Below, in pieces: positions 44,828-45,577 of a stretch of DNA of 64,000 bases. Positions within the stretch are counted from its first letter, which is position 1; the number at the start of each line of letters is the position of its first letter. The notes beneath the pieces are model-generated. The model did no database searches. It was not told the DNA's origin and was given only the letters and a program-made list of their open reading frames with translations. Location: contig NZ_BAAAPK010000001.1 in the NCBI RefSeq assembly GCF_039531105.1, positions 1,240,001 to 1,304,000 of the forward strand. The letters run 5' to 3'. A program made the translations under genes and the position numbers. Source of the DNA: Microbacterium lacus (GTDB lineage: Bacteria; Actinomycetota; Actinomycetes; Actinomycetales; Microbacteriaceae).

Positions 44828-45577
44828 GTGGAACTCACGCTCGACAACGACATCCGGATGCCGGCTCTCGGGTTCGGGGTGTTCCAGACCACACCCGACG
44901 AGACCGTGGCGGCGGTGCACGCCGCCCTTGAGACCGGATACCGGCTCATCGACACCGCCGCCGCGTACGGCGGGGCGCAGACGGTGTTTCCGACGGACTC
45001 GTTCGCGACGGGCGTGGAGTTCATCCGGCGCATTGCGCTCGTCACGGACGCGGTCGGTCGCGAGCCGGACATCGACCTGCGACCCGAGGCGGCGGTCGTT
45101 CGTACTGCCGCAACACCGCGCGGCCGACTGGACACCGCCGATGTAGAACTCGTGCGTTCGATCGCCGGGATCGCCGCAGAGCTGGGGCTTGCCCCCGACC
45201 CGTCTCGTCTCCATACGATTCAGATCGCCATCGCGGAGGCGGAGGACCGGAGCACCCAGGAGTTCTGGGTCGCGGCTCTGGGCTATGAGTCGCTCGACGG
45301 AATCATCGTCGACCCGCTGCGCCGCGGACCGCGAATGTGGTTCGACGAGATCGCAGCACCGGGCCGCGGTCGCACCCACATAGATGTGGCCGTACCGAAC
45401 GATCGAGCCGCCGAGCGTGTAACCGCAATCCTCGACGCGGGTGGGCGGCTCGCAGATGACTCGCACGCACCGCAGTGGTGGACGTTCGCGTCGCCCGACA
45501 ACCACGGTGTCGACATCGCAGCGTGGGGCGATATCGATGACGGCGCGGCATCGACCGTCGACGCACACGACCAATAG
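44828..45577 (+). CDS. Chimeric protein: truncated aldo/keto reductase N-terminus joined to PCD-like and VOC domains
   Basis: 249 residues. Residues 1-49 are the start of a 2,5-diketo-D-gluconate-reductase-type AKR ([34 protein letters not shown] with D42 and Y47), then homology stops at about YGGAQ. From ~53 on the sequence is a pterin-4a-carbinolamine-dehydratase-like domain ([22 protein letters not shown]) and, from ~125, a VOC/glyoxalase domain ([19 protein letters not shown], RIHxDV-like [16 protein letters not shown]). The PCD catalytic His-His (HHPDVDLR) reads REPDIDLR, so dehydratase activity is unlikely. The AKR K and H residues are missing. Expressed or not, it reads as an intact frame across a recombination junction near 44975. 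Confidence 0.8.

Follow-up and report, generated by a model that had tools for sequence, protein, structure and literature searches.

The window analysed here, a stretch of 64,000 nucleotides of Microbacterium lacus (genome G000; contig NZ_BAAAPK010000001.1, positions 1,240,001 to 1,304,000), contains an open reading frame of 249 codons (44828..45577, + strand, GTG start) that is a genuine chimera of an aldo/keto reductase gene, AKR2, and a gene of a family that joins a pterin-dehydratase-like (PCD) segment to a VOC domain (PCD-VOC). Codons 1-48 (44828..44971, + strand) are derived from AKR2, with homology to the AKR2 genes of two other genomes, G153 and G231, ending at 44971, while the remainder (44966..45577, + strand) corresponds to codons 23-225 of an intact 225-residue homologue, P0002, plus the stop codon. 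Pfam places three pieces on the product in the order AKR, PCD and VOC, each of them partial or weak. Aldo_ket_red (PF00248) aligns to residues 20-51 with 25.2 bits against a cut-off of 24, and Pterin_4a (PF01329) to residues 52-112 (44981..45163, + strand) with 21.8 bits, below the cut-off of 26 for membership, the first 22 residues of the family being absent. Glyoxalase_6 (PF18029) aligns to residues 133-229 (45224..45514, + strand) with 48.4 bits, above its cut-off of 23.6, and this profile places the protein in the VOC superfamily. Fragments of the NCBIfam models for DkgA, DkgB and PCD are also present, every one far under cut-off. An in-frame AKR/PCD-VOC chimera had been proposed in a first-pass annotation, and is confirmed by the Pfam order together with the switch of homology to PCD-VOC orthologues at the joint.

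The chimera is preceded by the other two genes of an HTH-AKR1-AKR2 block, namely a divergent MmyB-like HTH regulator (42799..43674, - strand) and the intact upstream gene AKR1 (43799..44785, + strand; its ORF is listed from the GTG at 43751). G153 carries this block in two copies on different contigs, with AKR2 genes of 290 residues, which suggests from gene arrangement that the block may be mobile. The copies, at L045:7999-10907 and L046:7267-10234, share 92% and 82% identity with the window, respectively; the better one matches window positions 42837-44971 at 92% nucleotide identity and its match ends there. Searched against genomes of the genus, AKR2-like P0122, a 156-residue product from another record whose tail has no AKR likeness any more, matched 72 of 366 genomes at E <= 1e-40 and yielded G231, a draft genome of the same species (86% complete). 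Contig C245 of G231 is approximately 99% identical to window positions 24713-31528 and 32051-44971, the 522 bases between them (31529-32050) being missing from it. Beyond 44971, this contig stays in the AKR2 frame up to a stop codon and so presents an unfused AKR2, which shares its start codon with the chimera and differs from chimera codons 1-48 by a single amino acid, at residue 16. Residues 1-49 had been read as a reductase of the 2,5-diketogluconate type, and residues 1-48 are indeed the start of AKR2; the ancestral AKR gene thus survives unfused in related genomes, both in G153 and in the same-species G231.

Relative to G153, the AKR2 of G231 bears an internal deletion of 52 residues, and its dN/dS against the two G153 copies is 0.296 and 0.218, compared with 0.142 between those two copies and 0.065-0.101 for pairs of AKR1. 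Because of this deletion and the raised dN/dS, AKR2 was probably decaying in this species before the fusion took place. The dS of AKR1 between G000 and G231 is 0.027, and the fusion is probably a difference between strains within one species. Compared with the AKR2 genes of G153 and G231, the chimera is without codons 49-290, most of the barrel; no close copy of these codons was found in G000, where the best matches are full-length paralogues at 45-46%.

The second parent belongs to an established family of about 216 residues (approximately 216-225) that combines PF01329 with PF18029. A whole-protein search with the chimera retained 4655 proteins out of 8000 candidates, chosen for scoring by the number of words they shared with it. 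The 120 homologues listed carry PF18029, usually together with PF01329, most are 214-228 residues long, and their named hosts are largely Microbacterium and Leifsonia. The closest homologue among the matches listed is P0002, which differs from the chimera at 7 of 203 shared residues, matching from Tyr-Gly onward (96% identity over P0002 residues 21-225 in a search of G000). Intact PCD-VOC genes are therefore found outside this strain, as P0002 and as orthologues in further genomes. The PCD-VOC proteins of Microbacterium, Leifsonia and other bacteria match chimera residues 47-249 from Tyr-Gly-Gly, whereas the first 22 residues of the family, including W19 and L22, are swapped in the chimera for AKR residues 1-46. 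An alignment of the chimera with 63 of the 120 listed homologues (64 rows) has Arg and Glu at the PCD His-His position in 51 and 48 rows, respectively, the chimera included. The Arg-Glu pair, previously taken as peculiar to the chimera, is thus the usual state of the family and, on this alignment, no sign of the chimera's own decay. The solved chains nearest to the family profile are seven PCD/DCoH sequences (E 2.2e-5 to 0.0089). No literature on the family was found among the matches listed, and a query combining the two annotation names gave no match. Two mutually different PCD-VOC copies lie near each other at loci L008 and L009 (genomes G137 and G100).

The parents meet in the sequence TACGGC (44966-44971, + strand), which encodes Tyr-Gly in both. 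The matches of G153 and G231 run exactly up to 44971, and the alignments of six distinct PCD-VOC orthologue records begin at 44965 or 44966, which bears out a fusion point previously placed near 44975. Counted against five PCD-VOC orthologues in place of the true parental DNA, microhomology at the exact joint is 6 and 7 bp for G051 and L. poae and 0 for the other three, of which G174 and G047 nonetheless read TACGG. Shared stretches of at least 6 bp occur in 0.26-0.36% of random joins, and on these counts microhomology at the joint is likely. Spontaneous microhomology-associated rearrangements in bacteria likewise have a short repeat at the joint, although the cut-offs deduced for true joints in one study are 8-12 bp (PMC3411829), compared with the shorter 6-7 bp of the chimera.

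Apart from the chimera, a search of G000 with P0002 returned one short match (residues 1-18, 83%, E 0.025) at G000:C1:3073288-3073235, on the minus strand and therefore on the other strand from the chimera, at a distance of 1.79 Mb; dnaA of this genome lies at C1:345573. This severed start reads MVESVSARQFHDEPG, identical at 15 of 15 positions to P0002 residues 1-15, and is preceded by a GGGAGG ribosome site and followed after codon 15 by unrelated DNA. Together with approximately 60 bp upstream, it is 74-76% similar to the PCD-VOC loci of G174 and G156 (about 100 bp), and the region is 81% similar to that of M. rhizomatis over 57 bp. PCD-VOC codons 16-23 are absent from both the chimera locus and the severed-start locus. 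The DNA that follows the severed start matches neither the lost 3' part of AKR2 nor window positions 47219-47560, so a clean reciprocal exchange does not apply; such an exchange had been considered and was rejected, the AKR2 3' part being without a close copy in G000 and absent beside the remnant. At 2 kb upstream of the remnant stands a hydrolase with an 89%-identical counterpart approximately 5 kb downstream of PCD-VOC in G047, on the same strand with the gene order swapped, and this shared neighbour points weakly to 3.073 Mb as the native site of the gene. Among the loci mapped for neighbouring genes, the PCD-VOC loci of G051, G174, G156, G047 and L. poae have no shared neighbours beyond AKR1-like paralogues, which lie near the gene in G047 and L. 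poae at 31-33% identity. G231 (86% complete) did not show the ancestral PCD-VOC site; its only match to P0002 is a VOC stretch at 59%.

A clean terminator had been ascribed to the chimera, but a scan there found 0 sites (mean of 1.7 in shuffles) and the only candidate structure, a 10-bp inverted repeat (45602-45611/45627-45636, + strand), is without a T-run and is not called a terminator. At gathering thresholds, Rfam has no match within 43500-47800. Further downstream lie an ECF-like sigma factor (45795..46361, + strand) and an adjoining ORF (46361..47221, + strand) that has no Pfam match and is anti-sigma-like by position only. The two are 88% identical in nucleotide sequence to contig C3 of G156 (window 45683-47219 against G156:C3:10952-12483), the next best matches listed for the sigma gene among 198 genomes being approximately 68% identical; the PCD-VOC gene of G156 stands at the end of a different contig. 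An att-like, 99-bp direct repeat, with the 3' end of tRNA-Arg(CCG) in it, occupies 47556..47654; the tRNA and an integrase (C1:1323096-1324019) adjoin its other copy, which is 99% identical and lies at G000:C1:1323993-1324091. An apparent integrated island of approximately 36 kb lies between these repeats, beginning in the window and extending past its end. In G156, G141 and G176, tRNA-Arg(CCG), itself reversed in G141, comes within approximately 0.8-2 kb after the genes of window 32071-40327, and beyond it stand the genes that in G000 lie right of C1:1324046. The corresponding gap in G000 is filled by approximately 43.7 kb of variable cargo in the order AKR block, chimera, sigma factor and neighbour ORF, 99-bp repeat, further island, integrase and tRNA, and by this comparison the chimera occupies a variable island site at tRNA-Arg(CCG). 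In G231, the end of contig C245 (L104 561-600), downstream of AKR2, has 40 bp that match the integrase gene of the tRNA-Arg site at its 3' end with 95% identity, which suggests layered old islands.

Among 198 genomes of the genus, its own included, the matches listed contain a full match to residues 1-249 only from the strain itself. The best 29 non-self loci of that search (L004-L032) were fetched and inspected, and each has its own, non-AKR N-terminus; AKR scores over 31 N-termini range from 14 to 33, whereas 200 shuffles reached at most 36 and a true AKR2 scored 206. A protein search with residues 1-100 (7999 candidates scored, 120 listed) gave, among the matches listed, coverage of at most 82% of the piece and no protein carrying PF00248 and PF01329 together. 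Many full-length homologues, such as would mark an established family of this architecture, were thus found neither in the 198 genus genomes nor in the two protein searches. Abhydrolase-PCD-VOC proteins resemble the chimera in attaching PCD-VOC to an unrelated N-terminal partner, but their partner is an alpha/beta hydrolase and, unlike the chimera, their fusion recurs and is therefore an established architecture. Open frames of this kind, judged by eye, occur at 9 of the 29 loci (L011-L018 and L025), with Pfam labels for P0103 only.

AKR enzymes are (beta/alpha)8 barrels of about 280 residues with a catalytic tetrad of Asp, Tyr, Lys and His. The chimera does contain the D42/Y47 pair previously ascribed to it, before the end of the AKR part, but only profile positions 15-48 of 291 are matched and the Lys and His regions, which lie beyond AKR2 codon 48, are absent, so that by its sequence the product cannot have AKR activity. 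The PCD motif consists of His-His-Pro and a third His; the chimera reads R78-E79-P80 and, by eye, Thr93-Ala94 at the third position, a state common to most of the 64 rows. AKR residues replace the family's N-terminal F10, H11, W19 and L22, of which W19 and L22 are invariant in 63 of 63 rows, and residue 89 is Ala in the chimera where P0002 and all 62 other rows have Val. AlphaFold predicts that the PCD core and VOC fold are kept, with pLDDT values by block of 33-61 for residues 1-50, 93-98 for residues 51-90 and 77-94 for the VOC region, the low confidence of the AKR tail being partly built in because the chimera's alignment had no AKR rows. In the model of intact P0002 (pLDDT 87.8 overall and 85-92 over residues 1-20), the first 22 positions contain a short helix and a strand of two residues. 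If made, the product would be co-expressed with AKR1 and would comprise a PCD-like core and a VOC domain bearing a 46-residue AKR tail. Sequence and model together indicate that its PCD-VOC function is probably reduced or none, and on the model the AKR operon might yield a VOC protein that is partly folded. The dN/dS of the PCD-VOC part is 0.100-0.162 for the chimera and 0.097-0.152 among relatives, values in which post-fusion time is not separable; since the frame is open and these ratios are like those of relatives, there is still room for a working protein.

The locus is best explained, with a probability of roughly 0.8, by a recent, strain-level illegitimate join at TACGGC that fused AKR2 codons 1-48 to PCD-VOC codons 25-225. 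Both parents, a joint within 6-7 bases, an unfused AKR2 and a severed PCD-VOC start are established for this join. The break in AKR2 would have occurred inside the variable cargo zone beside tRNA-Arg(CCG) and would have captured the 3' part of a single, split PCD-VOC gene, with codons 16-23 lost in the move and the sigma factor and neighbour ORF perhaps carried along; no vehicle was found for the moved segment, nor any boundary on its right-hand side. The first-pass annotation had considered a scar of deletion between two VOC/AKR loci. The scar stands, but a plain deletion between neighbours is not the best account because the PCD-VOC start sits 1.79 Mb off on the other strand, and a split PCD-VOC gene with its 3' part moved beside AKR2 is most likely instead. 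It is doubtful that AKR2 and a PCD-VOC copy were once neighbours in the tRNA-Arg island region and were fused by local deletion, with the start at 3.073 Mb surviving from another copy that was truncated independently. Relatives do vary between 40.3 kb and the tRNA, some of them (L008, L009) have two related PCD-VOC copies nearby, and a single event would suffice for the fusion itself, yet two truncations would be needed whose endpoints, at codons 15 and 24 of 225, happen to complement each other to within 8 codons, the remnant shows no difference from the start of P0002, and AKR2 lies beside PCD-VOC in none of the nine non-self loci mapped, the AKR approximately 2.6 kb from PCD-VOC in G047 being a different one, 31% like AKR1.

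Very improbable is a large, 1.79-Mb inversion between AKR2 (1.285 Mb, + strand) and PCD-VOC (3.073 Mb, - strand), despite the fitting strands of AKR2 and the severed start: the backbone, both at 32.07-40.31 kb and beyond tRNA-Arg on the right, runs collinear with that of G156, G141 and G176, which contradicts a single inversion unless a second one restored the order, and the other breakpoint lacks the AKR2 3' part. The chance of an assembly misjoin at 44971 is similarly slight; the chimera is seen in a single genome, but the joint is internal to a contig of 3.28 Mb, in a genome with a completeness rating of 99.99%, an overlap of 6-7 bp is presumably too short for assembly joins, and the rest of the assembly contains no close copy of the AKR2 3' part. 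Unlikely, too, is a selected composite gene, the other option initially raised, in which PCD-VOC would have come under AKR-operon control and the AKR tail would replace the lost first helix and strand. The open frame, AKR2's own start region, the VOC domain above cut-off and the folds kept in the AlphaFold model all suit such a gene, but the fusion is present in one genome only, its tail is of low predicted confidence, W19 and L22 are lost, residue 89 departs from P0002 and the 62 other rows, and nothing favours selection. There is the same small chance of a newborn composite gene, polymorphic within one species, in which the first AKR beta-alpha-beta unit substitutes for the PCD helix and strand; if true, a VOC protein of unknown function would have been rewired under the AKR-operon regulator, and a natural bacterial domain replacement would have been caught near its birth with parents, joint and severed remnant identifiable. 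Under the illegitimate join, the chimera is probably a nonadaptive, strain-level scar and thus recent evolutionary debris.

The fusion is ordinary in kind, and its parts are unusually well documented. Gene fusions are mostly observed long after their birth, whereas here the joint, the unfused AKR2 and the severed PCD-VOC start can all be identified, and the locus illustrates how a gene that is already in decay, at a tRNA island, can become an in-frame chimera by chance. Mixed AKR, PCD and VOC domain calls on one protein may accordingly represent the debris of rearrangement, a caution for annotators.
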